The translations under genes and the position numbers were made by a program. Shown here one piece after another: positions 4,415-21,193 of a stretch of 26,967 nucleotides of DNA. The DNA lies in the IMG/VR virus record IMGVR_UViG_3300044643_000379, positions 1 through 26,967 of that record; one strand, written 5' to 3'. The notes beneath the pieces were generated by a model. The model made no database searches and was not told where the DNA came from. It worked only from the letters and a program-made list of their open reading frames with translations. This DNA comes from a virus. The number at the start of each line of letters is the position of its first letter. Positions within the stretch are counted from its first letter, which is position 1.

Positions 4415-4466
4415 TTTACCATCCGTTTTAAAAATATGTACTAATTTAGCAGAAACGCAGCAGATA

Positions 4467-4976
4467 TTGTTACCATCTTTTCATGCAATAGTCGAAAAAG
4501 TTTACACGAGCCAATGGTTTAACGAAGTTATCGACAAGATGCAGCCAGAACAATTGCAGCAGGATTTAAAGCAAGAGGTTATAATGGTGTTACTAGAACT
4601 TCCACAAGAAAGGGTTGAACAAATGGAAGCCGATGGGATGCTAAAGTTTTATACAATTAGGACAATACTTAACATGATTAAGTCCGATAGGTCAAAGTTC
4701 TTTACTATGTTTAGGAATTATGAGGAAATACCCGACATCAAAGAACAAGCCCATGAAGATTATTTTGAAATGCCCGACATTGATTTAAATACTATCTTTG
4801 ACAATACAAGAGAGCAGCTATACGAAAAAGATATGCTTTTTCATTATTGCTATTCTTTTGACCGCAACGCTTTAGCAATGAGTAGAGGTACACAAATACC
4901 CTACAAAACAATTATAAGAACATTAACAAACGCAAAAAACAAAGTTAAATGCTACTTACAATCGCAGCAGCAATAA
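4467..4976 (+). CDS. Sigma-70-like / HTH transcription regulator (putative late-gene switch)
   Basis: I suspect a divergent sigma-factor-like protein. The segment QQDLKQEVIMVLLEL resembles the start of sigma region 2 in short phage and ECF-like sigma proteins. The C-terminal part (MSRGTQIPYKTIIRTLTNAKNKVKCYL, split here for reference as MSRGTQIPYKTII and RTLTNAKNKVKCYL) fits a region-4-like helix-turn-helix followed by a basic helix. The middle is acidic (DIKEQAHEDYFEMPDIDLN). The frame is open from a GTG at 4356, but that start would put repeats, a promoter-like element and a hairpin inside the gene. I therefore prefer the TTG at 4467 (169 residues); ATG 4539 is too far in. It is first in a row of overlapping genes leading to the packaging genes, as expected for a regulator. 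Function is inferred from weak resemblance. Confidence 0.6.
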   Translation: MLPSFHAIVEKVYTSQWFNEVIDKMQPEQLQQDLKQEVIMVLLELPQERVEQMEADGMLKFYTIRTILNMIKSDRSKFFTMFRNYEEIPDIKEQAHEDYFEMPDIDLNTIFDNTREQLYEKDMLFHYCYSFDRNALAMSRGTQIPYKTIIRTLTNAKNKVKCYLQSQQQ

Positions 4977-6421: not shown

Positions 6422-6860
6422 TGTAATTTTAGGCAATAATTGCTACATCGGTGCTTATTGTATTATAGGCGCACCGCCAGAATGGAAAGGTAAAGAGCAA
6501 CAAGGTAAAGGCGTTTTTATAGGAAACGATGTAAGGATAACTGGGCATGTTACAATAGATTCGGGTGTAGAAAATAAAACCTTTATTGGTAGCGGTTGCT
6601 ACATAATGAAAGGGGTGCATATTGGGCATGATGTTTATGTATTTCAAGATTGCACATTATCCTGCCATTGTTTAATAGGTGGTCATAGCATTATTCAAAA
6701 AAATACTAATATAGGTTTGGGTGCTATTGTTCATCAAAAGTTAATAGTACCGCCAGGATGTATGATAGGCATGGGAACTGTTGTAACAAAGCGCACACAA
6801 ATGCAACCTAATTCAAAATACGTTGGAAACCCTGCAAGATATTTAAGCCCAAACAAATGA
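6384..6860 (+). CDS. LpxA-like left-handed beta-helix acyltransferase
   Basis: The 158 residues are almost entirely hexapeptide repeats ([LIV]-G-x-x repeats from residue 3 to about 135), the left-handed beta-helix of acyl/acetyltransferases. The resemblance is closest to LpxA: HPTAII at the start, then the VHIGHD segment with His79 and His82, which lines up with the catalytic-His region of LpxA, and AIVHQ (His117). It lacks the C-terminal helical domain of cellular LpxA (about 260 residues), so substrate choice may differ. It sits between two glycosyltransferase genes and overlaps both (38 bp and 4 bp). A role in acylating an LPS or O-antigen sugar is plausible; a simpler sugar O- or N-acetyltransferase is the alternative. 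Confidence 0.82.
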   Translation: MNYIHPTAIIYPDVILGNNCYIGAYCIIGAPPEWKGKEQQGKGVFIGNDVRITGHVTIDSGVENKTFIGSGCYIMKGVHIGHDVYVFQDCTLSCHCLIGGHSIIQKNTNIGLGAIVHQKLIVPPGCMIGMGTVVTKRTQMQPNSKYVGNPARYLSPNK

Positions 6861-7477
6861 CAACCATAATACTACTCGACTACTTAAGACATGAATTTAC
6901 ACATAGGGTTAAAGATGTAAATTTAAACAATGCTGGTGCGGAGTTTGAACTTGTGCAAATAGACATGAAAGGCGTTTCGGCTGCAATAAATGAAGGTATA
7001 GCACAAGCAAGCGGCAATGTAGTTACAATGGCAAACGATATATTGATGCCCAATAATTGGTTGGCGGATATGCTACATTATGCTAACCAAATACCAAATA
7101 GCGCAATGGTAGGAATGCACACCGTAGAGGGTTTACCCGCCCCAACGGAAATAAATGGATTGAAGATTTGGGAAACTATCCCATTTGGTAATGTGCTAAT
7201 AACAAAACAAGCTATTGATAAAGTAGGGTATTTCAATCTTGACCTTGATCCGTATTCGGTAAACGATAGGGATTATTGGATGAGGTGCGAGTTAGCGGGT
7301 TTAATAAGCTATTACATTCCTGGAAGTGCAGAACATTTAGGAAACGATGTAGGGCAAACAACCGACTACCGTAAGATGAAAGATGAAAGCCTTAACTTAT
7401 TATGGCGAAAAGGCGAACAATGGTTAGAGTATTATAAAAACACAGGAAATTACTATTTAGGTTATGAGCAAGTATAA
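6857..7477 (+). CDS. Glycosyltransferase, GT2-like (GT-A fold)
   Basis: A 206-residue short GT-A-like protein. MTTIILLDYLR is the first strand. KGVSAAINEGIAQASGNVVTMANDILMPNNWLADML contains the nucleotide-binding region (quoted here in two parts: KGVSAAINEGIAQASG and NVVTMANDILMPNNWL), where AND replaces the usual DxD. GYFNLDLDPYSVNDRDYWMRC resembles the acceptor-site ED/DRD motif of GT2 enzymes. The missing canonical DxD raises the chance of altered metal use or low activity. The start overlaps the acyltransferase stop (ATGA). The gene end overlaps the terminase small subunit gene by 14 bp and carries the putative terS promoter element. Confidence 0.75.
   Translation: MTTIILLDYLRHEFTHRVKDVNLNNAGAEFELVQIDMKGVSAAINEGIAQASGNVVTMANDILMPNNWLADMLHYANQIPNSAMVGMHTVEGLPAPTEINGLKIWETIPFGNVLITKQAIDKVGYFNLDLDPYSVNDRDYWMRCELAGLISYYIPGSAEHLGNDVGQTTDYRKMKDESLNLLWRKGEQWLEYYKNTGNYYLGYEQV
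7453..7463 (+). promoter_or_regulatory. Putative late-promoter -7 element for terS
   Basis: CTATTTAGGTT (7453-7463) runs directly into the ATG at 7464 and matches, over 16 bases including the ATGA, the element before the scaffold gene at 16678. The TA lies 10 nt before the ATG, as in the other four late starts. The TTTGACC element is absent here and the sequence also codes for the end of the GT2-like protein, so confidence is limited. Confidence 0.35.
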
Positions 7478-7898
7478 AAAACATTATATCGGAGTAGATG
7501 AAATGTGGGAACTATTCCTACAATATCAAGAATGGGCAAAAGCCACGCCAGTTGAAGTGCAAGACTATGTAGGTAAAGATGGCAAAGAGGTACATAGAAA
7601 AAGAGAAAGACCACTAACATTGGTAGGGTTTGAGTTGTTTGTTTACAACATTAAAAACTGTGTTATCGCTCAATATTTTTATGGCGGCTCGGGTGATTAT
7701 ACCGATTATAAGAATGTAGCCGAAAGAATTAGAAAGACTATTCAAAACGACCAAATAGTTGGCGGCATGACCAACATTTATAATCCTAGTATAACCGCAA
7801 GGCTTAACGGATTGAAAGAAAGCGTTGAAGAAAGTGGAAGCAAAGAATTAACCATAAAAGTAAAATATGAGCGAAAAGGAAGTTCCGATAACACTTAA
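7464..7898 (+). CDS. Terminase small subunit (P22 gp3-like)
   Basis: A 144-residue protein immediately upstream of, and overlapping by 32 bp, the large terminase gene. Its layout fits gp3-like small terminases: an N-terminal helical part (MWELFLQYQEWAKATPVEVQDY, of which MWELFLQYQEWA is typical), the segment GFELFVYN, a YKNVAERIRKTIQ helix and the characteristic IYNPSITARLNGLKE near residue 112-126, followed by a charged tail. It would recognise the packaging site on phage DNA and load the motor subunit. The specific pac sequence is not visible to me. Confidence 0.85.
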   Translation: MSKYKKHYIGVDEMWELFLQYQEWAKATPVEVQDYVGKDGKEVHRKRERPLTLVGFELFVYNIKNCVIAQYFYGGSGDYTDYKNVAERIRKTIQNDQIVGGMTNIYNPSITARLNGLKESVEESGSKELTIKVKYERKGSSDNT

Positions 7899-9048
7899 TG
7901 AACCGCATGAAGCGCAAGAACAAATACTAAATGAAGCCCAAAGATTTAATGTGCTTTGTTGTGGTCGTAGGTTTGGTAAATCTGCCTTAGCGGTCAATTT
8001 ACTTTGTGAACCCGCAATTGATGGAATGCCCGTTGGGTATTTCACCCCTACATATAAACTTTTAGATGGTACGTATAACGAATGCTTAAAAGTACTTGAA
8101 CCTATTATATCAAGAAAGAACGACCATCAATTCATTGAACTTTTAACTGGCGGTAGGATTGAATTTTGGTCTTTAGAAAATGAATTGGCGGGTAGGTCAA
8201 GAAAGTACAAACGTGTTATATTAGATGAAGTTGCCTTTGCTCGTAACCTTTGGAAACTATGGACTGAAAGTATACGCGCAACCTTGTCCGATTTAAAAGG
8301 TGATGCTTGGTTCTTAAGTACTCCAAAGGGTAAGAATGATTTTTATAAATTATACATAAGAGGTAAACAAGACGAACCTAATTGGAAGTCGTGGCAAATG
8401 AGTACTTACATGAATCCTTACATCGATCCTTTAGAAATTGACGATGCAAAAAAGGATTTGCCAGAACTTGCTTTCTCTCAAGAGTACCTTGCCGAATTTA
8501 ACGACAACGTAGCCAACCCATTTGGTACGGCTTATATTGCTCAATGTACTTACCCATTGTCTACATTACCCGCCGTTTGTTATGGCATTGATTTAGCAAA
8601 ATCTTATGACTTTAGTGTTATTATTGGCTTAGATAAAAACGGAAGCGTTTGTTATTACGATAGGTGGCAAAGTGATTGGCATAATACAAAACGCAAAATA
8701 TTAGATTTACCAAAAGTTGATGTTTGTATGGATGCTACGGGCAATGGCGATCCTATTGCCGAAGATATACAACGCGTAAGGGGTGGCGTTGAAGCATTTA
8801 AGTTTACATCAACAAGTAAGCAGCAATTGATGGAAGGATTGGCGGTTGCTATACAAAGTAGAGTAATAACATTCCCAGAGGGAGTAATTACAGAGGAGTT
8901 AAATAATTTTGAGTATATTTACTCAACAAGCGGGGTAAAATATTCTGCACCCAGCGGCTTACATGACGATACCGTTTGCGCTTTGGCTTTGGCATGGCGC
9001 AAATATCAAAGTGTTGGCAAAGGTGCGGGTAACTATTCATTCAGTTAA
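7867..9048 (+). CDS. Terminase large subunit (ATPase-nuclease packaging motor)
   Basis: All core motifs are present. Walker A CGRRFGKS is at 32-39, Walker B VILDE at 117-121 and the coupling motif STPKGKNDFY at 151-160. The RNase H-like nuclease acidic residues lie in YGIDLAKS (Asp242), VCMDATG (Asp289) and GLHDDT (Asp367/368). The length of 393 residues is on the short side for the family but no motif is missing. It powers DNA translocation into proheads and cuts genome ends. It overlaps the small subunit gene and is followed after 2 bp by the frameshift gene, in one transcript ending at the 9834-9863 terminator. Confidence 0.95.
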   Translation: MSEKEVPITLNEPHEAQEQILNEAQRFNVLCCGRRFGKSALAVNLLCEPAIDGMPVGYFTPTYKLLDGTYNECLKVLEPIISRKNDHQFIELLTGGRIEFWSLENELAGRSRKYKRVILDEVAFARNLWKLWTESIRATLSDLKGDAWFLSTPKGKNDFYKLYIRGKQDEPNWKSWQMSTYMNPYIDPLEIDDAKKDLPELAFSQEYLAEFNDNVANPFGTAYIAQCTYPLSTLPAVCYGIDLAKSYDFSVIIGLDKNGSVCYYDRWQSDWHNTKRKILDLPKVDVCMDATGNGDPIAEDIQRVRGGVEAFKFTSTSKQQLMEGLAVAIQSRVITFPEGVITEELNNFEYIYSTSGVKYSAPSGLHDDTVCALALAWRKYQSVGKGAGNYSFS

Positions 9049-9050
9049 TT

Positions 9051-9677
9051 ATGTGGAATAAACTAACCGTAAAACAAGCGCAAGAAATTGACAAACTAAG
9101 GCGCAAAATAAGCAAAGAATACACCGAAGCCGATGTAGATACCGAACTATTGGCTATCATTAAAAACGTGCCTGTATCCGTAATAGATAGCATGAAGTGG
9201 GTGGACTTTGTAGAAGCTAGAAAAGAACTTGTATTTTTAGAAAACGAACCCAAAGGAAAGCCCGTTAAATATATTAAAATAGGCAAACGTGCTTATAGAA
9301 TGGTTTACGATATTAGACAGATGCCTTTTGCTCGTTACATTGAGGGCAAAACCTTTGCACAAGATTTTGTTGCTAATTTACATAAGATAGCCGCAACAAT
9401 GGTAATGCCCCAACGCAAAACATGGTTTAGATGGGTAGATGACAAGTACGATGCAGCAAAGCATGAAATATATGCAAATGATATGCAACAAGCACCATAC
9501 GAGGCTATTTACGCAAGTACGGTTTTTTTTTGCAATCTATTCAAGAATTGGATAATAGCTTCAAAGGGTTATATGATAAACGAGTTAGCGAACAAGGGGA
9601 TGACAAAAGAGGAAGCCGAAAAGCAGGTGAACGATTTATGCAAGTATTTGGATGGCATTACACCGCAGAGCAAATAG
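9051..9677 (+). CDS. Unframeshifted product of a probable frameshift gene (tail-assembly-chaperone-like candidate)
   Basis: A 208-residue protein I do not recognise by family. It is charged and mostly helical, with a central basic stretch (GKRAYRMVYDIRQMPFARYI) and GKTFAQDF. At codons 158-160 it passes through the T9 tract. The zero frame then continues for 48 residues with good protein-like composition (for example GMTKEEAEKQVNDL) before TAG. A second open frame begins at the T tract in the -1 frame and runs to 9793. A gpG/gpGT-like arrangement is suggested, but such genes normally sit beside the tape measure gene, which lies about 4 kb downstream, so the chaperone role is tentative. It starts 2 bp after the terminase gene. 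Confidence 0.65.
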   Translation: MWNKLTVKQAQEIDKLRRKISKEYTEADVDTELLAIIKNVPVSVIDSMKWVDFVEARKELVFLENEPKGKPVKYIKIGKRAYRMVYDIRQMPFARYIEGKTFAQDFVANLHKIAATMVMPQRKTWFRWVDDKYDAAKHEIYANDMQQAPYEAIYASTVFFCNLFKNWIIASKGYMINELANKGMTKEEAEKQVNDLCKYLDGITPQSK

Positions 9678-9793
9678 CCGAATATCAGCGCATTGAATTA
9701 AATAGCGTTTACGAAATGCCTACCATTGAAGCTATAAATGCCATGAGTTACCTAAAGGGTAAGGCTAAATATATTGAGGAGTTAAATAGATAG
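9051..9793 (+). CDS. Probable -1 frameshift fusion product (247 aa)
   Basis: Zero-frame reading up to 9530 (160 codons), then a -1 slip to continue from TTG 9530, gives a 247-residue fusion ending at TAG 9791-9793. The added C-terminus contains VFGWHYTAEQIAEYQ and MPTIEAINAMSYLKGKAKY, which look like real coding sequence. The -1 frame has no good start of its own; its first possible start, TTG, is part of the T tract. One extra T in the tract would also join the two parts into a single 248-codon reading frame, so a homopolymer error or a real one-base deletion is the main alternative. Alternatively the true switch lies later, since zero-frame sequence up to about 9650 also looks coding. Confidence 0.5.
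9523..9531 (+). promoter_or_regulatory. T9 slippery tract (-1 ribosomal frameshift site)
   Basis: Nine consecutive T. In the zero frame they are read T TTT TTT TGC, a perfect X-XXY-YYZ heptamer (9524-9530) allowing both tRNAs to re-pair after a -1 slip. Only a weak downstream hairpin (CTATT 9537-9541 with AATAG further on) is visible. Transcriptional slippage on T9 is also possible. Confidence 0.55.
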
Positions 9794-9833
9794 GTTGTAT
9801 ATTTGTTTTTTAGATCATGGTTTGTTTTTTGTT

Positions 9834-9863
9834 AGCCCTTTGTTTCTACAAGGGGCTTTTTTT
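9834..9863 (+). terminator. Intrinsic terminator after the packaging operon
   Basis: AGCCCTTTG (9834-9842) pairs with CAAGGGGCT (9849-9857), 9 bp with one G-U, around TTTCTA. Seven T run to 9863. It separates the terminase/frameshift transcript from the tail module. The 108-bp gap 9794-9901 also holds two copies of TTTGTTTTTT (9802-9811 and 9821-9830) and a TATATTTG match. Confidence 0.88.
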
Positions 9864-9867
9864 ATGC

Positions 9868-9901
9868 TATGCCTATAACCATCGCTTTTACTATTTAGAG
9901 T
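9868..9901 (+). promoter_or_regulatory. Putative late promoter of the tail module
   Basis: TATTTAGAGT begins at 9892, exactly 10 nt before the ATG at 9902, as in the other late starts. A TATG at 9868-9871 lies 20 bp upstream at the -33 position, a one-base variant of TTTG; the following ACC is not matched well. It directly follows the terminator, the same arrangement as at 18757-18824. Confidence 0.45.
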
Positions 9902-10564
9902 ATGGCATTGAGTTTAGCAGGTATAGGCGAAAGTAGAAGCGGGTTTAATCAGCGAGGCGGAGCTGTTGATGAAAAAGAATTGCCTATTGTTCAAGGCTTA
10001 CTTGAAAAAAGTGCTTTGGATTTTATAACACAAGTTCAAGCCAATATCAATAAAAAAGGCTTAACAAGCAAGGGCAATATGTCGGATTTGGTTTATAACG
10101 TAACCGACAACAACGGATCGTATTTAATAGAGGTTGGATATTCACCAGACAATCCCGCATCTAAATACTACGATTACCAAAATAAAGGCGTGGCGGGGGT
10201 TGGCAAATCTATTGCTTCGCCTTATGCTTTTAAAACATTGTATCCAAGTAGGGCAATGATGACAAGTATATTGCTTTGGCTAAGAACTGCAAAAAATCTA
10301 AGTAGAAATGAAAGTCAAAAGTCGGGCTTATCTAAACTACAAAAGAAAAGAAAATCATTAAGTAAGTCAGTAGATAAAAGCAAAGATTTAAAGTCTTTAG
10401 CCTATGCCATTTCGGTTTCTATAAAAAGAGATGGTATAGACCAAACAAGGTTCTTTGACGATGCAATAGTAAAAGTATTTGGCAAAGGATTTATTAAAAA
10501 AGCATCAGAGGCATTAAAAGCCGATATAAGTATAAAGATTATCAATTATGGCGATAACAATTAA
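9902..10564 (+). CDS. Putative structural protein (neck/tail completion, gp10-like)
   Basis: A 220-residue protein resembling unannotated structural proteins encoded beside tail genes in Bacteroidota phages. Visible features are ASKYYDYQNKGVAGVGKS (about 87-104), a tyrosine/glycine-rich segment resembling the HK97 gp10-type fold, IASPYAFKTLYPS, a basic stretch rich in Lys/Ser (132-163) and a final SVSIKRDGIDQTRFFDDA. It opens the tail operon directly behind a putative late promoter, and its end overlaps the next gene by 17 bp. The assignment to head-tail joining rests on resemblance and position only. Confidence 0.6.
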   Translation: MALSLAGIGESRSGFNQRGGAVDEKELPIVQGLLEKSALDFITQVQANINKKGLTSKGNMSDLVYNVTDNNGSYLIEVGYSPDNPASKYYDYQNKGVAGVGKSIASPYAFKTLYPSRAMMTSILLWLRTAKNLSRNESQKSGLSKLQKKRKSLSKSVDKSKDLKSLAYAISVSIKRDGIDQTRFFDDAIVKVFGKGFIKKASEALKADISIKIINYGDNN

Positions 10565-11771
10565 TTCAGTACCAGCCGACTTTGCTTCATTAAACGATGA
10601 CGCATGGTTTGTAGTTAGTAGTACAAATGTAGCAACCGAAAACTTTAAATATGTATTTGATACCTATGTATCGGGTGGCATTGTTAGTAGGGTAAAAATA
10701 AACCCTGCCCCATCTGCCGAAAGTAGTTATGGCGTTTTTAATTCCGCGCCTATTGTACGCAATTACATGAATAACTATTTTAAACCAGTGGAAGGTAGCG
10801 TATTGCAACATTCATCGGATGAAATAAAGGTACAATACGATATTCGCTTTGGCGAAGAAGTTTCGGGCATTGTTACTACAAACTTAGCAAGTGGAAGCTA
10901 TGCGGGTTACAACTATTACAATCCTTTGTTTTTCGATGGGATACTTTTGTTAGGCGGTGGCGAAGGTGATTTATTGCTTTCCAACCAATACGACAATTTA
11001 CTTATATCAAACTATTCCGACGATTGGCTCACTGAACGTAAAATTGATTACATTGATATAATATTTGGCAAACGTAGTTTTATTTCGTTCTTATCTAGGG
11101 AACTTACAAGCTGCAACGTAGAAATAAGCAAAGTAAACGAATCGGGAAATATAGTAGCAACGGCATCGGGTGCAACGGTAAACCTTACGGGTGAATTTAA
11201 TTTATTTGAATTTAGTGCCGCATCAATAAACGACTATTTAGGTAGTGAGTTTATTTTAGAAACCGATTACGGGTATAAGGTAAGGTTAATAAATGGCGAA
11301 TTTATAACCAACTATGTAAACTATGTTCACGCTTGTTATACAAGAAGCAACCCTATTAACATTCATTTCCTTAACCGTTTAGGTGGTTGGGATACATTTG
11401 GGTTTAACCTTATAAATAAAAGGTTTACCGCATTTGAAAGGCGAAGTTTTAAAAAGGCTGCTTATCAACTTGAAGGCGATCAGATGCTTAATAGCGACCA
11501 ATACAATAGATTCAATGAAAGTACTACTAACTTTTCAATAGAGCATAGAGATACTTATAGATTGGTAAGTGATTATGTAAGAGAGCAAGATTACACATGG
11601 CTCGGTCAATTGGTTGCTTCGCCTATTGTTTACATGGAAGTTAGAGGGGCTTATTTCCCTATAACGGTAACCGATACCAATTTTGAATACAAGACCGAAA
11701 AGGCAGACCAATTATACAACCTTGAAATAAATATTGAGGTAGCTAAATACAATAATAGTCAATATAGATAA
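10548..11771 (+). CDS. Putative tail/baseplate structural protein
   Basis: A 407-residue, beta-rich protein with many aromatic and Asn residues and no enzyme motif. Repeated hydrophobic/polar alternation and segments such as INIHFLNRLGGWDTFGF (about 277-293) resemble large unannotated tail proteins of Bacteroidota phages. It overlaps the preceding gene by 17 bp, and its stop codon shares a base with the start of the next gene (TAATG). Together with the following gene it is probably part of the tail tip or baseplate hub. A distal-tail role is possible; I cannot separate these by eye. Confidence 0.6.
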   Translation: MAITINSVPADFASLNDDAWFVVSSTNVATENFKYVFDTYVSGGIVSRVKINPAPSAESSYGVFNSAPIVRNYMNNYFKPVEGSVLQHSSDEIKVQYDIRFGEEVSGIVTTNLASGSYAGYNYYNPLFFDGILLLGGGEGDLLLSNQYDNLLISNYSDDWLTERKIDYIDIIFGKRSFISFLSRELTSCNVEISKVNESGNIVATASGATVNLTGEFNLFEFSAASINDYLGSEFILETDYGYKVRLINGEFITNYVNYVHACYTRSNPINIHFLNRLGGWDTFGFNLINKRFTAFERRSFKKAAYQLEGDQMLNSDQYNRFNESTTNFSIEHRDTYRLVSDYVREQDYTWLGQLVASPIVYMEVRGAYFPITVTDTNFEYKTEKADQLYNLEINIEVAKYNNSQYR

Positions 11772-13840
11772 TGAGAACAAGATTAGTACTAGAAGGAATC
11801 AATTTAGATTTATACGAGGACATAGATACTACGTTTACCTATGCAATTGACGATGTAAACGATTTTGGAAGCAAAAACACATCGTATTCAAAGACTATTT
11901 CCATTCCTGGCAATGCCGTAAATAACAAAGCATTTGGTAATGTATTTAATTTATCAAGTTCTAACGATTACGACAACGGCGCACCTAACATTGGTTATAA
12001 TTTTAACCCATCAAAATCGGCAAGGTGTATAGTACTAATTGACCAAATACAAGTTTTTAAAGGTTCATTAAGATTGACCGAAATAATAAACACCAATGGA
12101 ACTTTAGAATACCAATGTTTTATTTATGGCGAATTAGGCGGCTTTATATTTGAATTAGGCAATAGGCGTTTAGAAGATTTGGATTTTAGCGAATACAACC
12201 AAAACTATACTTTGGCTAATATTACTAATTCATGGAATGCGGTAAATGGTCAAGGCGTTGCTTACCCTTTAATTGATTACGGCAATGTATCAACTAATAA
12301 AGTGGACTTTCAATACAAGGCATTTAGACCTGCGTTGTATGTTAGAGAATATTTAGAAAAGATAATTTCAGGCACAGATTACACCGTAGAAAGCAATTTC
12401 TTATTAACGCCTTTGTTTGACCGTTTGGCAATACCTTACAATAGAAAAAATTTAGATAGGGTTTCAACTCAATACATGTCGGCTACAATTAATGAGCAAG
12501 AATTTGCATCGGTAGCGGATCAATATGTTTTATCTTACACAGGTGTTTCTTTAGGTAGCTTTAGTTTAACCGCTAGTGGAACTAATATACAATATAATGG
12601 TACTACACCAATAACGGTTGATATTGAATTTCGTTTAACTGGTCAAATAGGTATCATTTACGCAGGTGGCGATGCACAACCTGTTAATCTTATACTACAA
12701 AAAAACAATGTAGGTATTGATTCAATAACGTTGCTACCTTATACAGAGGTAAGCACAACCGAGCCAATGGATATACTTGTTAGATTCAATGGCGTTAATT
12801 TAGTAACGGGCGATAGGCTTAGAATGGTTATACCTGTTGAAGATGCTAGTAGAGGACTTAATACAATAGTATTAGAAATTGATGCGGGTATTGCATTAAC
12901 ATTTGGCGGCGGTACGGGTTTGGCAGTACCTATAAACATCGGCGAAACCATACCCATTAACAAGATAATTCCAAAGGGTATATTTCAAAAAGACTTCTTT
13001 ATTTGGATTTTAAAAATGTTTAATCTTTACGTTTACGAAAGTCCATTTGATGACAAAAAGATTATCATTGCGCCTTACGTTGGTTTTTATCCAACAACGG
13101 CTGCAAATGCTATTGATATTTCACAAAAGGTTGATCGTAAAGAACCAATTAGGAGCATCCCAATGAGTGAACTCAATGCAAGGTATTTTAGATTTAAGTA
13201 CAAAGAGGACAACGATTTTTATAACGAGGAATACCGCAAAGGCTATAATGAAGGCTATGGCGATTTTATTTACGATACCGAATTTGATTTTAGCAAAGAC
13301 ACAGACGATTTAGAGGTAGGTTTTAGTAATTCGGTTTTGTATCAAAACACAGGAACGGATAAAGTTTATCCTGCCATTTATAAACTTTCAGGGACTACCG
13401 AAACAAGCATGGACTTTAATATAAGAATAGTGCAAATGAAGAAAATGAGTTGCAGTTCTTATAACATTTTAAACGGTGTTACCAATTTGGGAACACAAGC
13501 AAATTACTTGTATTGTGGACATGTAAACGATCCCGTAACACCAACAAGCGATTTATGCTTTGGCGCACCACAAGCATTGCAGTTTACACCAACGGGTGTT
13601 TATCCATCGGCTAATTTATTCAACTCTTTTTATTCGGATTACATGGCAGAGATAACGGATAAGGATAGTAAATTAGTAGCATGTAAAGCGTACCTAAATA
13701 CGGTTGATATAATGACTTTGGATTTTAGTAAGTTGATTTATTTAGATGGCGTTTTGTTTAGATTAAATAAAATAAAAGATTATAACCCAGTTGATTTAGG
13801 TACAACCGAAATTCAACTACTTAAAGTAATAGATTTATGA
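11771..13840 (+). CDS. Putative tail-tip/baseplate protein
   Basis: A 689-residue beta-rich protein. The N-terminus (MRTRLVLEGINLDLYEDIDT) and SYSKTISIPGNAVNNKAFGN are of a type I associate with Bacteroidota phage tail proteins. No peptidase or glycosidase motif is evident. The gene lies immediately before the tape measure gene (4-bp ATGA overlap) and after another beta-rich tail protein, so a baseplate or tail-tip role is inferred. In classical siphovirus order such genes follow the tape measure; here they precede it. Confidence 0.62.
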   Translation: MRTRLVLEGINLDLYEDIDTTFTYAIDDVNDFGSKNTSYSKTISIPGNAVNNKAFGNVFNLSSSNDYDNGAPNIGYNFNPSKSARCIVLIDQIQVFKGSLRLTEIINTNGTLEYQCFIYGELGGFIFELGNRRLEDLDFSEYNQNYTLANITNSWNAVNGQGVAYPLIDYGNVSTNKVDFQYKAFRPALYVREYLEKIISGTDYTVESNFLLTPLFDRLAIPYNRKNLDRVSTQYMSATINEQEFASVADQYVLSYTGVSLGSFSLTASGTNIQYNGTTPITVDIEFRLTGQIGIIYAGGDAQPVNLILQKNNVGIDSITLLPYTEVSTTEPMDILVRFNGVNLVTGDRLRMVIPVEDASRGLNTIVLEIDAGIALTFGGGTGLAVPINIGETIPINKIIPKGIFQKDFFIWILKMFNLYVYESPFDDKKIIIAPYVGFYPTTAANAIDISQKVDRKEPIRSIPMSELNARYFRFKYKEDNDFYNEEYRKGYNEGYGDFIYDTEFDFSKDTDDLEVGFSNSVLYQNTGTDKVYPAIYKLSGTTETSMDFNIRIVQMKKMSCSSYNILNGVTNLGTQANYLYCGHVNDPVTPTSDLCFGAPQALQFTPTGVYPSANLFNSFYSDYMAEITDKDSKLVACKAYLNTVDIMTLDFSKLIYLDGVLFRLNKIKDYNPVDLGTTEIQLLKVIDL

Positions 13841-15573
13841 GCGAAATAATAGGTTTATCGGTACAGTTACAAGCAGACAAAGCAATTGAATCGGTTGGTA
13901 GTATTAAAAAGGCAATGCGCGAAGCACAGAAAGAGGTGCAAGTATTATCCGACAAGTTTGGTGCAACTAGCAAAGAAGCTATTAACGCCGCAAAGGTAGC
14001 GGGGGAATTAAAAGATAGGATAGGCGATGCAAAAGCATTGACCGATGCCTTTAACCCCGATGCAAAGTTTAGAGCATTAACTTCATCTTTAGCGGGTGTA
14101 GCGGGTGGATTTTCAGCCTTACAAGGTAGTATGGCTTTATTTGGTAGCGAAAGCGAAGATGTACAAAAGACTTTATTAAAAGTACAGTCGGCAATGGCTG
14201 CATCGCAAGGGCTACAGGCAATAGGAGAAAGTATAGATAGTTTTAAGCAATTAGGGGCGGTAATAAAAACGCAAGTAGTAACCGCATTTTCAACTTTACG
14301 AGGTGCAATAATTGCCACAGGCGTTGGTGCTTTAGCGGTTGGATTAGGTTTGATAATTGCAAACTTTGAAGCGGTTAAAAAAGCGGTATTAAGCGCAATT
14401 CCTGGTCTTGAAGCATTTGGCAAATGGATAGGAAAGACAATTGATTCAATAACCGATTTTGTAGGTGTTACAAGTGATGCTACTAGGGCATTGGATAAGT
14501 TAAAAAAAGATGCAGATGCTACCTTGAAAGTCAATGAAAAGTTCATGAAAGAACATGGCGATCAAGTAGACAAGTACACAAAGCAAAAAATTGATGCAAA
14601 AAATAAATATTTAGAAGCTATAAAAGAAGATGGCGCAAATGTAGCGGCATTGGGTAAAAGGTTAAATAGAGAATTGGCTGCTGCTGATAAAGAAAGGGCA
14701 GACGATGCACAAAAAGCAAGAGATGAAGAAGCAAAGAAAAGAGCAGAGGAAGCAAAGAAAGCAAAAGAGGCAAGGGATAAAGTTGCAAAAGACATAGAAG
14801 AAGAAAACGAAAGGCGTAAAAATGCAGAGCTTAAATTCTTTTTTGATAGGCTAAAAGCTATTGATTCTTTAAATGCACAAAGAGCAAAAGAAAAAGCCGA
14901 ACAAGATGCTTTGGATAAAGAACTTTTAGACCAAAGCGCAAAAGATGCTGACGATTATTCTGCACGAGAATTTGAAAGAACCCAAAAAGATATTGCAAAT
15001 AGAAGATTAAAAGCCGCTGAATTAAAAGCAATAGGATTAGCTGAATTACAAGCAGATAGAGAATTAGAAGATGCAAAGTTTGGAGTAGCTAGTCAAGCAT
15101 TGGCATTAGGTCAGCAGCTAGTTGCAGGACATGAAGGCGTTGCAAATGCATTGTTTTTGGTTGATAAAGCATTAGCCATTGGCAAGATAATTGTTGATAC
15201 GCAAAGAGAAATAGCAGGATATTTTGCATCTACTGCGCCATTAGGTCCAGCAGGAGCGGCTATTGCAGCTAAATTATCATTAGGTGCAAAAATAAGAGCA
15301 GGGATAGGGATAGCAACAATAGCAGCTACATCGATAGCTAAATTTAAAAACGGTGGCGCGGTTGCGCCTTCTATTGGCGGTGATGGTGCGGTAAATGTAA
15401 ACGGTGGTTCACCGCTTCAGCCGACTACAATTGCCGCAAATCAAGTAACACTTGACCAACGTAGTATAAACGCAATGGGTAATAGAGCGATAAAGGCTTA
15501 TGTAGTAGAAACAGAAATAAGTAGCGCACAACAAAAGATTAGAAGGATACAAAAACAAACAACCTTTGGATAA
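13837..15573 (+). CDS. Tail tape measure protein
   Basis: A 578-residue protein with the typical composition: Ala/Lys/Glu-rich, an N-terminal helical part (SVGSIKKAMREAQKEVQVL), a hydrophobic segment at about 148-175 (FSTLRGAIIATGVGALAVGLG region), a long charged coiled-coil at about 225-410 and a Gly/Ala-rich hydrophobic C-terminal part (about 440-505) followed by FKNGGAV. It would set tail length; using about 1.5 angstroms per residue the tail would be roughly 85-90 nm. It overlaps the baseplate-like gene by 4 bp and is the last gene before the protease promoter. The large antisense ORFs over it are artefacts of its low-complexity codons. Confidence 0.88.
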   Translation: MSEIIGLSVQLQADKAIESVGSIKKAMREAQKEVQVLSDKFGATSKEAINAAKVAGELKDRIGDAKALTDAFNPDAKFRALTSSLAGVAGGFSALQGSMALFGSESEDVQKTLLKVQSAMAASQGLQAIGESIDSFKQLGAVIKTQVVTAFSTLRGAIIATGVGALAVGLGLIIANFEAVKKAVLSAIPGLEAFGKWIGKTIDSITDFVGVTSDATRALDKLKKDADATLKVNEKFMKEHGDQVDKYTKQKIDAKNKYLEAIKEDGANVAALGKRLNRELAAADKERADDAQKARDEEAKKRAEEAKKAKEARDKVAKDIEEENERRKNAELKFFFDRLKAIDSLNAQRAKEKAEQDALDKELLDQSAKDADDYSAREFERTQKDIANRRLKAAELKAIGLAELQADRELEDAKFGVASQALALGQQLVAGHEGVANALFLVDKALAIGKIIVDTQREIAGYFASTAPLGPAGAAIAAKLSLGAKIRAGIGIATIAATSIAKFKNGGAVAPSIGGDGAVNVNGGSPLQPTTIAANQVTLDQRSINAMGNRAIKAYVVETEISSAQQKIRRIQKQTTFG

Positions 15574-15577
15574 GCTA

Positions 15578-15611
15578 TTTGACCAAAAACCCAAAATAAA
15601 CTATATATATT
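15578..15611 (+). promoter_or_regulatory. Putative late promoter of the protease gene
   Basis: TTTGACC (15578-15584), a 17-bp spacer, then TATATATATT (15602-15611) running into the ATG at 15612. The TTTG-N20-TA spacing fits the Bacteroidota -33/-7 layout. Transcription would start at or within a few bases of the ATG. Confidence 0.6.
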
Positions 15612-16658
15612 ATGGACTTACCTGTTTTTTTATTGAATATATCGGATGACGAAAACAACGATACCGAAGTAAATTACATTGCTTTGGTTGAATATCCTGC
15701 AATACAAAAAAACTTTTTAGCATTTAAAGATCAATTTGTTGAGCCAAAACAAGGCGAAAGCAAAGAAGATTTTATCCCTAGATGTATTAGCTACATGATT
15801 AACGAGGGTAAAGAAAATGAACAAGCGGTCGCTATTTGCTACAATATGTGGGAAGGCGGCTTTACCGAATCGTTTAAAAGCTATGCCGATTATCCCGATG
15901 GAGTAAAAGGTAATGCCAAAAGGGTGTTAGAATATGTAGAGAAAAACGGTTGGGGTTCATGCGGAACTCCCGTTGGTAAGCAAAGAGCAAATCAATTAGC
16001 AAAAGGCGAAGCTATATCCTTAGAAACCATAAAAAGAATGTACTCTTATTTAAGTAGGCATGAAGTGGATTTGGATTCATCTACGGGTTATAGCGATGGA
16101 TGCGGTAAACTTATGTATGATGCATGGGGTGGAAAGGCGGCTTTAGGATGGAGTAGAAATAAATTAAGGGAGTTGGGAGAATTAAAAGACGATTTTATTG
16201 GGCAAACTAAATTTGCTATACAAGACGAGGAACAAAAAATTGTTTCTGGTCCTTTAATGGTAGCCGATTTACCAATTTACCGTAGAGATGAAGATGCCGA
16301 GTATTATGTAGTATTTACCGCCGATGAAATTAAAAAGATAGTACAAAGGTTTTTCAAAAAAGGCTATCAAAGCAAAGTAAATATTGAACATGGAAAGCCC
16401 GTTGATGGCGTGTATATGTACGAAAGTTATATAATCGATAGGGAAAAAGGCATTATGCCGCCAAAAGGATTTGAAGATATTAGCAACGGGAGTTGGTTTG
16501 GTACTTTTAAAGTAGAGAATGAAAGCATTTGGGAAATGGTAAAAGAAGGCACTTTTAAAGGCTTTAGCGTTGAAGGTTTATTTCAATACAAGCCAAAAAA
16601 AGAGGCTATGAGTGATGAAGAAGTGCTTGAAAAAATTAAGGCAATACTTTCTATTTGA
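15612..16658 (+). CDS. Prohead maturation protease, XkdF-like, with an extra N-terminal domain
   Basis: A 348-residue protein. Residues 1-85 contain the ALVEYPAIQ and EDFIPRCISYMINEGKENE segments common in XkdF-like phage proteins. Residues 93-190 form a separate Gly/Trp-rich domain with NGWGSCGTPVGKQRANQLA and GYSDGCGKLMYDAWGG. Residues 200-325 are the serine-protease part, with His260 (VNIEHG) and Ser319 (GFSVEG) as likely catalytic residues. It would cleave scaffold and capsid during head maturation. The last residues (EEVLEKIKAIL) resemble the N-terminus of the following scaffold-like protein. It has its own putative promoter and sits two genes before the major capsid gene. Confidence 0.82.
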   Translation: MDLPVFLLNISDDENNDTEVNYIALVEYPAIQKNFLAFKDQFVEPKQGESKEDFIPRCISYMINEGKENEQAVAICYNMWEGGFTESFKSYADYPDGVKGNAKRVLEYVEKNGWGSCGTPVGKQRANQLAKGEAISLETIKRMYSYLSRHEVDLDSSTGYSDGCGKLMYDAWGGKAALGWSRNKLRELGELKDDFIGQTKFAIQDEEQKIVSGPLMVADLPIYRRDEDAEYYVVFTADEIKKIVQRFFKKGYQSKVNIEHGKPVDGVYMYESYIIDREKGIMPPKGFEDISNGSWFGTFKVENESIWEMVKEGTFKGFSVEGLFQYKPKKEAMSDEEVLEKIKAILSI

Positions 16659-16688
16659 CCATATTATTAATTAAAAACTATTTAGGTT
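16654..16688 (+). promoter_or_regulatory. Putative late promoter of the scaffold-capsid genes
   Basis: TTTGACC (16654-16660) overlaps the protease stop codon. After an 18-bp spacer, TATTTAGGTT (16679-16688) abuts the ATG at 16689. It is identical over CTATTTAGGTT to the element before terS. It would drive the scaffold-like and major capsid genes, which need the highest expression. Confidence 0.6.
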
Positions 16689-17216
16689 ATGAACGCAAAA
16701 GAATTACTAGAAAAAATCAAAGCGGTATTTAACGAAGTACCTGTTGAACAAGCTGCTGCACCAGTTGCAGAAGAAGCACCAGTAGAGTTTAAAGATTATA
16801 CTTTAATGGATGGTTCAAGCGTATCTATTGACAAATTAGAAATAGGCGGCGCGGTTACAAAAGATGGCGTACCTGTTCCAGAGGGTGAATACCTTATGGC
16901 AGATGGTTCTGCAATTGAAGTTGATGCAAGTGGGTTGATTTATGAAATTAAAGCAGCCGAGCCTGTAATGCCAGAAGCACCCGTTGAAGCAGCAAAACCA
17001 CCGATGGAAGATGCAAGAGTACCACAATTAATGGCAGAGCAAGTTAGATTGAAACAAGCATTCAATGATTTAGTTTCATTGGTTGAAGGTTTAATTGAAA
17101 CTCCTGCGGTTGAACCAATAGAGGTACAAAAAACTAAATTCGGTCAGGTTATCGACAATAAAAAAGAAAGACTTTCTAAAATATCAAATTTATTAACTCA
17201 AATCAAAAATAAATAA
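16689..17216 (+). CDS. Scaffolding-like protein
   Basis: A 175-residue acidic, Ala/Pro/Val-rich protein between protease and major capsid protein, the classical scaffold position. It has an N-terminal helix (KELLEKIKAVFNEV), a Pro/Ala-rich linker, a central beta-like part with DGSSV, PEGEYLMADGSAIEVD and a C-terminal helix (about 118-175) with a basic end, KKERLSKISNLLTQIKNK. The C-terminal basic helix would fit capsid binding. A head decoration or capsid-stabilising protein is the alternative. The stop codon is 2 bp before the capsid start. Confidence 0.65.
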   Translation: MNAKELLEKIKAVFNEVPVEQAAAPVAEEAPVEFKDYTLMDGSSVSIDKLEIGGAVTKDGVPVPEGEYLMADGSAIEVDASGLIYEIKAAEPVMPEAPVEAAKPPMEDARVPQLMAEQVRLKQAFNDLVSLVEGLIETPAVEPIEVQKTKFGQVIDNKKERLSKISNLLTQIKNK

Positions 17217-17218
17217 AA

Positions 17219-18166
17219 ATGGCATTCTCAGTAGGAACACTTACAGACTACGTTAAGCAGAAGGCAGACGAGATTGTCGCTTCTTCGCTTTTCGATGCAA
17301 AAACTCAACAATTAATTCAGGCTTCAGGTAATGTAATGGTTGAAGTTAAGTCGGCTCAAACTGTAAACATCATGGACACCGATGCGGCTTTCCAAGATGA
17401 TAGCGGTTGCGCTTTCAATGCTTCTGGTACAACTACATTTACTCAAAGAACTTTGACTGTTGGTAAAATCAAGATTCAAGAAGCACTTTGCCCTAAAGAT
17501 TTAGAAGCTAAGTATTTACAAGAATCATTAAGACCAGGCACTAACCAAGATAGCGTTCCTTTCGAGGCTGCTTACATGGATAGAAAAGCTGGAAAAGTTG
17601 CAGAGCAATTAGAAACTGCAATCTGGAAAGGTGATAAGTTAAGCACCAACATGAACTTAAACAAGTTTGACGGATTTATAAAAATCATTAACGCTGCTGC
17701 TGGTGTTGTAGATGCAAACACTACTCCTTATGTAAGTGCAACCGTTACAAGTTTAACAGTAACTAACATTTTAAGTGTTATCAAAGGAATCAAAAACGCT
17801 ATCCCTGCACAAGTAATGGGTAAAGAAGATTTTGTTATATTCTGCGGATGGGATACATTTAACTTAGTAGTTGATGCTCATGTTAATGCTAACTTGTTTA
17901 ACTACGGTTCTCAAAATATCGGAAACGGTGAGTTCACTATTCCAGGAACAAATTACAAAGTAATTGCAGTTCATGGTTTAGATGGAACAAACGATTTGTT
18001 TGGTCTTAGACTTTCAAACATGTACTTTGGTACTGATTTGTTAAGCGATGAAACAAATGCTGAAATGTGGTATAGCCAAGATGACAGAAATGTTAAGTTT
18101 CACTTAGCTTTCAAAGCTGGTGTTCAGGTGGCTTTCCCTGCAGAGATTGTTAAATTTATAGTATAA
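17219..18166 (+). CDS. Major capsid protein
   Basis: A 315-residue protein placed directly after protease and scaffold-like genes. It has a helical N-terminus (TLTDYVKQKADEIVASSLFDAKT), then a core with LTVGKIKIQEALCPKDLE, an acidic-helix segment (AYMDRKAGKVAEQLETAIWKGD), and a C-terminal half with IPGTNYKVIAVHGLDGT and HLAFKAGVQVAFPAEIVKF, consistent with an HK97-fold A-domain. Position and length support the call, although no short catalytic motif exists to prove it. Codons here are relatively rich in C-ending forms (AAC, TTC), as expected for a highly expressed gene, unlike neighbours. It ends in a hairpin 7 bp downstream. Confidence 0.85.
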   Translation: MAFSVGTLTDYVKQKADEIVASSLFDAKTQQLIQASGNVMVEVKSAQTVNIMDTDAAFQDDSGCAFNASGTTTFTQRTLTVGKIKIQEALCPKDLEAKYLQESLRPGTNQDSVPFEAAYMDRKAGKVAEQLETAIWKGDKLSTNMNLNKFDGFIKIINAAAGVVDANTTPYVSATVTSLTVTNILSVIKGIKNAIPAQVMGKEDFVIFCGWDTFNLVVDAHVNANLFNYGSQNIGNGEFTIPGTNYKVIAVHGLDGTNDLFGLRLSNMYFGTDLLSDETNAEMWYSQDDRNVKFHLAFKAGVQVAFPAEIVKFIV

Positions 18167-18173
18167 AAAATCG

Positions 18174-18201
18174 GGGTAGGTGCTAAATGTACCTACCCTT
18201 T
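18174..18201 (+). terminator. Hairpin after the major capsid gene (weak terminator or mRNA stabiliser)
   Basis: GGGTAGGT (18174-18181) pairs perfectly with ACCTACCC (18191-18198) around a 9-nt loop. Only three T follow before AAAAA, so termination would be partial. It may let capsid mRNA accumulate over that of the next gene, or protect the 3' end. Confidence 0.7.
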
Positions 18202-18215
18202 AAAAATTATTAATC

Positions 18216-18737
18216 ATGCCATGTGCTTTAACAAGTTCATATAGTTTAGATTGCCGCGATAGTGTTGGCGGTTTGGTAGAAATTTACTTCATTGAGGAAG
18301 GTAATGTTACAAGCGTTACCGAAGCTAGTGGATCTGTTTCTGCAATAACCAAAGCAACGGGAAAGGTATTTAGAAAATATGAGCAAGACCAAGATACGGC
18401 GTTCTTTGTTGAAAACTTAAATAGTAACGTACAAAACGGAACTATCTTCTATCAACAAGAATTGACCATTGTTTGCAATAGAATGCAAACCGCTACAAGA
18501 AATGAATTGTTGTTGTTGGCAAAAAATAGATTAATTGCAGTAGCTAAAGATGCAAACGGTGCATATTGGTTGTTAGGTAAAACTAGACACCTTCATGCAA
18601 CTGCTGGAAATAGTGGTTCTGGTACTGCTTCTGGAGATCGTAACGGTTACACCTTTACTTTCACCGCTATGGAACCAAACCTTGCGCCAAGCGTAACCGA
18701 TGCTTGTGCTGCTACTTTATTAACTGTTGGAAGCTAA
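18216..18737 (+). CDS. Putative major tail (tube) protein
   Basis: A 173-residue protein with features of Bacteroidota phage tail-tube candidates: MPCALTSSYSLDCRDSVGG at the start, an EIYFIEEGNV strand, and alternating beta segments ending in TFTFTAMEPNLAPSV. Its length fits tail-tube proteins (about 150-200 residues). It lies between two hairpins, separated from the capsid gene by a weak terminator and followed by a strong one, so its mRNA level can be set separately, as expected for an abundant protein. A head-decoration protein is an alternative. Confidence 0.62.
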   Translation: MPCALTSSYSLDCRDSVGGLVEIYFIEEGNVTSVTEASGSVSAITKATGKVFRKYEQDQDTAFFVENLNSNVQNGTIFYQQELTIVCNRMQTATRNELLLLAKNRLIAVAKDANGAYWLLGKTRHLHATAGNSGSGTASGDRNGYTFTFTAMEPNLAPSVTDACAATLLTVGS

Positions 18738-18756
18738 TAAAACATAAATAAAATTA

Positions 18757-18793
18757 AACGATGCCCCAATAATATCGGGGCATTGTTGTTTTT
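18757..18793 (+). terminator. Intrinsic terminator after the tail-tube-like gene
   Basis: ATGCCCC (18761-18767) pairs with GGGGCAT (18777-18783), extendable outward to 18757/18787 with one G-U, giving about 11 bp with a 9-nt loop. A T-rich tail (TTGTTTTT) follows. The tail runs straight into the TTTGACC of the next putative promoter. Confidence 0.85.
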
Positions 18794-18824
18794 GACCAAA
18801 ACCAATGATTTTGCTATTTAAGTT
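18791..18824 (+). promoter_or_regulatory. Putative late promoter of the portal/connector genes
   Basis: TTTGACC (18791-18797), a 17-bp spacer and TATTTAAGTT (18815-18824) running into the ATG at 18825. It lies directly behind a strong terminator, so a promoter is needed here for the downstream genes. This is the best-supported member of the motif family. Confidence 0.65.
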
Positions 18825-19199
18825 ATGCTAGTACTTACAAAAGGCATTACTTCAAATATAGTTGTTACATTGACCGAAAAGCAATTGCTAACTTCGCCTA
18901 ATTATTTATTTATATTTACAGGTAGGACTACAAATACAGAGGTTAAATTTGTTTTGCTTAATGCAGCCGATGTAAGCCAATACAAGCAACGATATAATAA
19001 ATTTAGCATATCAAACACCTTATTTAGTACCGCTAAAGTAGAGCAATACATTTACAACATATACGAGCAAACAAGCACAAGCAATACAAATCCAATAGGG
19101 CTTAATTTATTAGAAACTGGCATAATGGATTTAAAACAAAGTGCAACAATATTTACAAGCCCTATCGGGGTTGAAACTGAATTTATTATACCATCATGA
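18825..19199 (+). CDS. Small putative structural protein
   Basis: A 124-residue beta-rich protein with no motif I can assign. It begins with LVLTKGITSNIVVTLTEKQLL and contains NYLFIFTGRTTNTEV and a C-terminal GVETEFIIP. Small proteins of this general look are encoded near structural genes in other Bacteroidota phages. It is the first gene of the portal transcript and overlaps the portal start by 4 bp (ATGA). A minor virion or connector role is inferred from location only. Confidence 0.6.
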   Translation: MLVLTKGITSNIVVTLTEKQLLTSPNYLFIFTGRTTNTEVKFVLLNAADVSQYKQRYNKFSISNTLFSTAKVEQYIYNIYEQTSTSNTNPIGLNLLETGIMDLKQSATIFTSPIGVETEFIIPS

Positions 19200-21193
19200 G
19201 TGAAAGCATATTCATACTAAAATTTGCAGAAGCAAAACAACCTGCATACAAGGAAAAAAGAGCCGAAGGATATATTGAATTTGGAGAAAAAAACGACTAT
19301 CCTACTTACTTGTTAGACTTATTTAACAAGTCTGCAAAGCATGGTGCTATAATAAACAACAAGGCAAAGTATATTTCTGGCAATGGTTGGGTAACCGAAT
19401 CGGGTGAAGATTCAATCTTTGCAAACAAAATGATGTTAGATGTACTAACTAGAAAAGTAGCTTTAGACATTGAAACCTTTGGCGGTTGTTATTTAGAAGT
19501 TATTTGGGGGCAATTAGGCAGACAGATTGCAAGTGTAAACCATGTAGATTATACAAGGGTAAGAACCAACAAAGACAATACGCAATTTTGGTATAAAGAA
19601 GATTGGTTGGCTATTGGTAGAGATAAGAAAGAAGCAAAGGTTATTCCTGCTTTTAATCCAAATACCAATGAAAAAGTACAAATATTATTTATAAAAGAAT
19701 ATAGACCTGGCGGAATGGCTTATCCGCTTCCTGGTTATTTCCCTGCATTAAACTTTATAGAAAGTGATGTAGAAGTGAGTAAGCATGTTTTAGGTAATGC
19801 TTCAACTGGCTTTACACCATCTAAGTTAATTACATTGCCAAATGGTGAGCCATCGGATGACGAAAAGAAAGAAATTACAAAAACATTTGAAAAAAGATTC
19901 ACTGGTTCGGATGGCAAAAAGTTTATCCTTTCATTTGTTACCGATGCGGCTCGTAAACCTATCATTGATGACTTAGGCGCATCAGACATGACTAAGGAAG
20001 ATTTTACCGCCGTTGATACGTTAATACAAAATAACATATTTGCGGGGCATGAAATTACTTCACCTTCATTGTTTGGTATTGCTCAACCTGGAAAGTTAGG
20101 AACAAGCACCGAGTTGAAAGATGCTTACGAAATATTTAAAAACACCTATGCCAACGATAAGCAAATGCTATTGGAAGGCGTGTTTAATATGTTGGCACGT
20201 TATGCGGGTTATAATGAAGTTTTAAAAATTATGCCTGTTAATCCTATTGGATTGCAAGTAACCTTTGCCGATTTAATAGCTATGGGTGCGCCTAAAGAAT
20301 ACTTGTTTGAAGTGGCGGGTATTGATGCTAGTAAGTACCAACCAACAAACGAGCAAGGCGTTCAAGTTCCATTGGGTGCAACAAACGAGGCTTTGCGTTC
20401 ATTAACGGGCAAACAACATCAACAATTGCTTCGCATCATTAGACAAGTAGGGCAAGGTAAATTGACAAAAGAAGCCGCAACCGTAATGCTTAAAAGCGCA
20501 CTTGGTTTAAGTGATGACGATATAAATACAATGTTAGGAGTTGATGAATTACCAACTCAAATGTCGGCGCAAGACGAGGTAAGCATATTTGCCAAGTTTG
20601 GCGATAGTAAGCAAAACTATAATGTACTTGTATCGCGTGTAAGGTTTAATGACCAAACGGAACTACAAGCCTTTGCCGATGTTACACAAATAGAAAGCAA
20701 TGTTTTGGATTTAATTGCAAAGGATAAGCGTATTACCCCAGAGGTAATTGCCGATACTTTAAACGTAACCGTTAGAAGGGTTACCGATATTATAAGCGCG
20801 GCAATTGAAAAAGGTTTAATAAGTACACAACAAACTACAATAGGCAAAGGCGATCAAACAAACATTGTAATAGAGCGTAAATTAACACAACCTTTAGCAA
20901 AGATTGTTGAGCAAATAAAGCCACAAACTACACAGTTTTTGGTTCGCTATTCTTATGAATGGCTTCCAGAAATACCTGCCAATGAACGCAATTCGGCGGC
21001 GCATCCTTCAAGGGATTTTTGCAAACAATTAATGACTTTAGATAGGCTTTATTCAAGAGCCGAGATTGAACAAATATCAGCGCAAGTTGGATATAGCGTG
21101 TTTGATCGTAGAGGCGGTTGGTGGAACGATGACGGTACAAATAAGCCACATTGTAGGCATAGGTGGTTTTCTCAAATAGTAACAAGAAAATAA
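19196..21193 (+). CDS. Portal protein with internal winged-helix and C-terminal head-morphogenesis-like domains
   Basis: A 665-residue protein. Residues about 20-400 fit a phage portal: YIEFGEKNDYPTYLLDLFNKS, then AKYISGNGW, a central QILFIKEYRPGG part and GTSTELKDAYEIFKN in the crown/stem region. Residues about 497-560 (IESNVLDLIAKDKRITPEVI and the following NVTVRRVTDIISAAIEKGLI) look like a winged helix-turn-helix. Residues about 585-665 contain HPSRDFCKQL, RRGGWW and HCRHRW, resembling the end of SPP1 gp7/Mu gpF-type head-morphogenesis proteins. It forms the DNA entry ring of the capsid. Its place downstream of the capsid gene is unusual. The portal call is good, the added domains less certain. 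Confidence 0.82.
   Translation: MSESIFILKFAEAKQPAYKEKRAEGYIEFGEKNDYPTYLLDLFNKSAKHGAIINNKAKYISGNGWVTESGEDSIFANKMMLDVLTRKVALDIETFGGCYLEVIWGQLGRQIASVNHVDYTRVRTNKDNTQFWYKEDWLAIGRDKKEAKVIPAFNPNTNEKVQILFIKEYRPGGMAYPLPGYFPALNFIESDVEVSKHVLGNASTGFTPSKLITLPNGEPSDDEKKEITKTFEKRFTGSDGKKFILSFVTDAARKPIIDDLGASDMTKEDFTAVDTLIQNNIFAGHEITSPSLFGIAQPGKLGTSTELKDAYEIFKNTYANDKQMLLEGVFNMLARYAGYNEVLKIMPVNPIGLQVTFADLIAMGAPKEYLFEVAGIDASKYQPTNEQGVQVPLGATNEALRSLTGKQHQQLLRIIRQVGQGKLTKEAATVMLKSALGLSDDDINTMLGVDELPTQMSAQDEVSIFAKFGDSKQNYNVLVSRVRFNDQTELQAFADVTQIESNVLDLIAKDKRITPEVIADTLNVTVRRVTDIISAAIEKGLISTQQTTIGKGDQTNIVIERKLTQPLAKIVEQIKPQTTQFLVRYSYEWLPEIPANERNSAAHPSRDFCKQLMTLDRLYSRAEIEQISAQVGYSVFDRRGGWWNDDGTNKPHCRHRWFSQIVTRK

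Follow-up and report, generated by a model that had tools for sequence, protein, structure and literature searches.

A start-adjacent two-box motif before virion genes of a tailed phage and its relatives, its likely promoter function and a candidate ECF-like sigma factor

Virion genes of the phage described here and of its relatives are preceded by a conserved two-box motif that adjoins the start codon, and the view of this motif as a real bipartite promoter is well supported, with promoter activity itself deduced from sequence. The motif reads as a promoter because the downstream box follows terminators, stands at the head of transcription units and is paired with another box at constant spacing. 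As a whole, the best explanation is probably that these are phage-specific promoters of presumed late timing that would be read by an ECF-like sigma factor of the phage, with RNA starting at or near the AUG.

Phage genome and relatives

The window, i.e., the whole stretch of DNA that was analysed, is an IMG/VR record of 26,967 bases with the gene content of a tailed phage. The gene calls include a helicase, a primase-like gene, the small terminase (start 7464), the large terminase (7867), the tape measure (13837), an XkdF-like protease (Peptidase_S78_2; 15612-16658, plus strand, Pfam E 3e-17) and a capsid-like protein (17219) with a match to a virion structural PHROG. Three further genes on the plus strand open units: gene 9902 (9902-10564), which has no assigned function, opens a virion-gene unit and its start codon adjoins the putative promoter; gene 16689 (16689-17216) precedes the capsid gene and opens that unit; and gene 18825 (18825-19199) opens a unit running on into the portal gene. 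Residues 499-542, in a C-terminal extension of the portal ORF (19196-21193), weakly match a winged-helix DNA-binding domain. A hairpin at 18167-18215, directly 3' of the capsid gene, is kept in relatives, there is no TATTTA before the next gene, and the hairpin may tune the expression of capsid versus the downstream genes.

Relatives were abundant among viral contigs, and 163 related viral loci were compared. The terminase alignment against bacterial genomes returned distant prophages only, the best cellular match being a prophage-like locus of Pollutibacter soli (terminase 51% identical). This locus contained no sigma-like gene and no motif, its single motif match sitting within a longer ORF, and the scan of bacterial genomes by capsid found no prophage. 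The host phylum is likely, though not proven, to be Bacteroidota, because Pollutibacter soli, in which the nearest cellular match lies, belongs to this phylum (Chitinophagaceae).

Motif sites in the window

At five starts the T of the downstream box lies exactly 10 nt from the ATG, as an earlier sequence-only reading of this DNA had stated. The starts 7464 and 16689 are both preceded by TATTTAGGTT, 9902 by TATTTAGAGT, 15612 by TATATATATT and 18825 by TATTTAAGTT, each running up to the ATG. The sites of 9902, 15612, 16689 and 18825 are intergenic and conserved.

The upstream boxes could be read from the sequence as well, where TTTGACC had been claimed 17-18 bp upstream at three starts and TATG at a fourth. 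All boxes are on the plus strand. The -33 box TTTGACC of gene 15612 (15578-15584; CTATTTGACCA in relatives) stands N17 before the -7 box TATATA (15602-15607), which is TATTTA in L009, L010, L011 and L089. In front of gene 18825, TTTGACC (18791-18797) is again N17 before TATTTA (18815-18820), and in front of gene 16689 it overlaps the stop codon of the protease gene (16654-16660) and stands N18 before TATTTA (16679-16684). Gene 9902 has the degenerate -33 box CTATGCC (9867-9873) N18 before TATTTA (9892-9897), and L088 has TAGACC at N17. The fifth site is doubtful: the TATTTA of the small terminase gene 7464 (7454-7459, plus strand) lies within the coding end of gene 6857-7477, in its YLGY codons (YLGYE), has no -33 box and is in an arrangement not kept in L088 or L089, and it is probably a coding coincidence.

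The plus strand of the window has 56 copies of TATWTA, which stands at one offset before 5 of 29 starts (p ~4e-9, or ~3e-7 after 60 offsets). When the upstream regions were shuffled with dinucleotides preserved, 3 of 2000 sets gave a 7-mer that four starts had at one offset. A simple sigma-70 scan gave fewer promoter-like sites than in shuffles.

Conservation and terminators

Among 348 non-redundant regions with an upstream gap of at least 20 nt, TATTTA was the top enriched hexamer and was position-specific. Its T was found 10, 11, 12 and 13 nt before the ATG in 6, 18, 4 and 9 cases (37 in total), versus a background of ~0.5-1 per offset. A de novo two-box EM search of all upstream regions locked on terminator hairpins and yielded no -33 box, and the box statistics therefore rest on direct counts.

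By gene, the motif was present at 18/20 distinct orthologous starts of 9902, 28/39 of 16689, 23/31 of 18825 and 11/45 of 15612 (all relatives). In other clades it also stands at 13 of 42 distinct orthologous starts of gene 9051, and the terminase, capsid, tape measure, portal and four other genes have it at 0 or 1 of 25-52 starts. When five genomes were aligned at different genes, CTATTTGACCA and CTATTTA were in common and the 17-18 nt spacer was divergent. Before gene-9051 orthologues of one clade (L094, L103, L105 and L146), hairpins with a conserved CAGTCTAAACA were observed directly 5' of CTATTTA-N5-ATG.

A terminator-like hairpin was found shortly before 27/45 (60%) motif-led starts versus 38/303 (12.5%) other gap-preceded starts (p 2e-11). 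This and the other p values make the evidence look stronger than it is, since the sites of one clade share ancestry and redundancy was removed with a coarse filter (70% over 50 nt). Two window sites lie behind such hairpins, as had been noticed before. Ahead of the gene 9902 promoter, the hairpin (stem-loop 9834-9857, 9834-9863 with its T-tract, plus strand) has a 10-pair stem with 5 G-C followed by TTTTTT and is kept in close relatives. The hairpin at 18761-18783 has a T-rich tail that runs into the next -33 box; it is listed on the minus strand, TGTTGTTTTT follows directly on the plus strand, and the orthologous hairpin is called on the plus strand in L004. Where terminators abut, the -33 box is not conserved.

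Upstream of the first terminator, a host-type TATATTTG was observed ~104 nt before gene 9902 (window 9797-9865), also in near-identical relatives and not clearly in L088; it could drive an RNA of ~55 nt.

Position of the RNA start

The distance from the T of TATTTA to the ATG is 10 nt in the window's clade; most relatives have 11, and values reach 14-15, so the 10-nt lock described earlier holds in the window's own clade only and gives way to mostly 11-14 elsewhere. The -7 box of F. johnsoniae begins with a T at -12 (PMC6847099). Under this host geometry, RNA would start on the A of the ATG at a distance of 12 and carry leaders of 1-2 nt at 13-14. At 10-11, however, +1 would fall within the AUG (on the G at 10), which calls for a shorter discriminator. 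Because orthologues have conserved N-termini, translation must begin at the motif-adjacent ATGs, and +1 must consequently be 1-2 nt nearer the box than in the host.

At sites with a distance of 10-11, the base before the ATG is a pyrimidine in 28/29 cases, versus 171/303 (p 5e-6) and 254/519 in the comparison groups, and all 39 of 39 non-redundant motif-led starts are ATG; leaderless initiation has a strong preference for AUG (PMC9031893). Leaderless or near-leaderless mRNAs are the best inference, because the pyrimidine at -1 and the exclusive use of ATG agree with a start on the A. Unlikely, if by no means far-fetched, is a real promoter with a short leader of ~1-5 nt, the RNA starting between the box and the ATG. 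Host geometry would leave relatives at distances of 13-15 with 1-3 nt of leader, and these often have A or G before the ATG, as this alternative expects, but the commonest class (10-11) leaves only 4-5 nt between box and ATG, and its -1 pyrimidine and the ATG-only use point to the A. The earlier suggestion of leaderless mRNAs is thus upheld in so far as a start-adjacent promoter implies leaderless or very short leaders, and from the same features we infer the exact form, in which RNA would begin on the A of the AUG. Leaderless mRNAs make up 5.5% of mRNAs in F. psychrophilum (PMC9723704), and ~3.7% of leaders are <10 nt in B. thetaiotaomicron (PMC7366714); leaderless late mRNAs would be unusual in Bacteroidota.

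Candidate sigma factor and comparison with host promoters

The candidate reader is an ECF-sigma-like protein (4464-4976, plus strand; frame open from 4356, true start unsure). A profile search located its gene on the upstream side of the large terminase in all 42 loci that could be tested (42/42), namely those extending 6 kb or more upstream. The window protein alone had no Pfam or PHROG match; single-sequence family and structure searches and a profile search of PDB sequences failed to identify it, but searches over its relatives did, with 19/26 members matching the NCBIfam sigma70-ECF model TIGR02937 (best E 2e-8). Two AlphaFold models (mean pLDDT 80 and 72) gave Foldseek top hits that were mainly ECF sigmas, with best E values of only 0.025 and 0.008. 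Superposed domain by domain, modelled residues 3-94 align with sigma2 of CnrH (73 residues, 2.2 A) and residues 104-170 with sigma4 of SigR (64 residues, 2.6 A), so the predicted layout has sigma2 and sigma4 and neither sigma1.1 nor sigma3. These predictions support a divergent ECF-like sigma factor, and the sequence-only reading's choice of this protein remains a good one in view of its fold and its presence in every testable relative. ECF sigma factors such as sigma-E, SigW and SigR (NCBIfam TIGR02937) have the same layout and give weak to moderate family matches, but the phage protein is very divergent, is phage-borne near terminase genes, has an extra C-terminal part in distant relatives and is not accompanied by a recognisable ECF promoter.

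The motif resembles Bacteroidota sigma-A promoters (PMC6847099, PMC9723704, PMC7366714) in having two boxes with similar spacing, TA at the downstream box and, in the window's clade, an upstream TTTG. It differs in that the sigma-A -7 element is TAnnTTTG and the phage box is TATTTA followed by variable bases, and in that sigma-A genes have mean or median leaders of 24-65 nt versus a phage box 10-14 nt from the ATG. The TTTG at -33 is present as TTTGACC in the window's clade and absent where a terminator abuts. The earlier assignment to an ordinary Bacteroidota -33/-7 promoter was accordingly not supported: the TTTG that ends TAnnTTTG is missing from TATTTA, and at a distance of 10 the +1 of host geometry would fall on the third base of the ATG, its G. 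In 400 kb of the Pollutibacter genome, TAnnTTTG occurred 38 times upstream of genes, versus 7-8 in controls and at varied distances, and TATTTA was not enriched before genes (17 vs 19).

The sigma-like protein probably reads the motif, as judged from its co-occurrence with it and from the mismatch of the motif with the host consensus. It is quite unlikely that the promoter, though real, is used by host polymerase together with a sigma factor of the host, either a variant of sigma-A or an ECF sigma, in which case the phage protein would serve other genes or be an activator. The host consensus (PMC6847099) does share the T and A that open the box as well as the TTTG at -33, but the absence of TTTG from TATTTA, the lack of enrichment before host-like genes and the retention of the sigma-like gene by every testable relative argue against it. 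Host-type boxes stand before some other genes of these phages, which fits a putative early/late division.

The 283-nt gap before the sigma-like gene (window 4116-4391) contains direct repeats TTTTTATGACGGAGAAC at 4120, 4171 and 4191, with a weaker copy near 4290. It also contains an inverted repeat that is perfect over 13 nt, AAAAAATGACGCA / TGCGTCATTTTTT; these repeats look origin-, iteron- or operator-like.

Translation signal or chance

The near-fixed distance of TATTTA from the ATG would also suit an element of translation initiation, but this explanation is very improbable. Among 534 operon-internal genes, A-rich signals were enriched instead and TATTTA was rare, with a small excess only. 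When the ATG was ignored, 14 distinct contexts had TG[AT]CC at 17-18 nt upstream of TATTTA, versus 0 for the reverse complement and 1 for the reversed control, indicating a partner box that keeps its spacing irrespective of the ATG, and TATTTA is placed behind terminators.

Chance or coding constraint is hardly credible as a general explanation. It applies to 7464 (YLGY codons) and to gene 21843 orthologues (KAYLKK), and CTATTTA is common in coding sequence, but the four intergenic sites, seen conserved in diverged relatives, are left unexplained. TATTTA before gene 21843 orthologues was rejected as a promoter, being coding for KAYLKK. In the window, CTATTTA occurs 10 further times on the plus strand.

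Proposed mechanism and known systems

In the proposed mechanism, host core RNA polymerase with the phage ECF-like sigma would bind the -33 box (TTTGACC, or CTATTTGACCA in close relatives) and the -7 box [CG]TATTTA at 17-18 nt from it; in relatives with a terminator stem over the -33 region, only the -7 box is clear. RNA would start at, or a few nt from, the A of the start codon, and the first gene of each late unit would be translated from a leaderless or nearly leaderless mRNA, the genes further down the unit having the A-rich start context usual in Bacteroidota. The packing of terminator, promoter and ATG would insulate neighbouring virion-gene units in little space. We propose only tentatively the broader picture of a Bacteroidota phage family with a dedicated ECF-like late sigma, start selection shifted towards the -7 box, late units starting exactly at the AUG and a virion programme translated by the leaderless (70S) route, which would be rare in the phylum. 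If true, a large group of uncultured Bacteroidota phages would have a promoter signature with a candidate sigma factor, and their transcription units could be predicted from the DNA. It would also yield a compact phage-specific terminator-promoter-start cassette, and leaderless translation could be tested in a natural setting, in bacteria that do not use Shine-Dalgarno sequences.

Phage sigma factors such as T4 gp55 and SPO1 gp33/34 switch host RNA polymerase to late genes with an AT-rich -10-like box, and the late mRNAs of T4 and SPO1 have leaders with ribosome-binding sites. The present system is alike in its AT-rich -10-like box and phage-encoded sigma, but differs from them in these leaders and in protein lineage. 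Transcripts of Thermus phage P23-45 are reportedly leaderless. Its middle and late promoters, of the extended -10 class, are comparable in that host RNA polymerase is redirected to a -10-centred class without a strong -35, but it uses gp39/gp76 and not a sigma factor (PMC7403470). TA-led leaderless bacterial genes (PMC3160421) likewise have a TA-rich -10-like box ~10-12 nt before the start codon and no Shine-Dalgarno sequence, and the phage box, at 10 nt in the window and mostly 10-14 nt in relatives, agrees with this placement. They occur in only 1/37 Bacteroidetes/Chlorobi genomes (PMC3160421), and the motif here differs in its phage-specific consensus and in being confined to phage virion genes.

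The exact long pattern was found in at least 117 stretches of IMG/VR versus 108 for a shifted-spacer control, which is near-equal. Among the retrieved loci, 11 matches versus 1 in the control started an ORF in a frame closed just upstream, and 9 of these 11 were in this phage family. These counts do not establish the exact TTTGACC form as general among phages.

A perfect TTTGACC-N18-TATTTA was also observed at 22190-22220, inside ORF 21843-22307 and with no adjoining ATG. The near-identical L004, L005 and L008 keep it, but the exact matches of L009 and L010 do not include it, and it is possibly an internal promoter or a coincidence. The -33 and -7 boxes have CTATTT in common (CTATTTGACCA and CTATTTA; 16651-16684 and other sites), like related half-sites ~27 nt apart.
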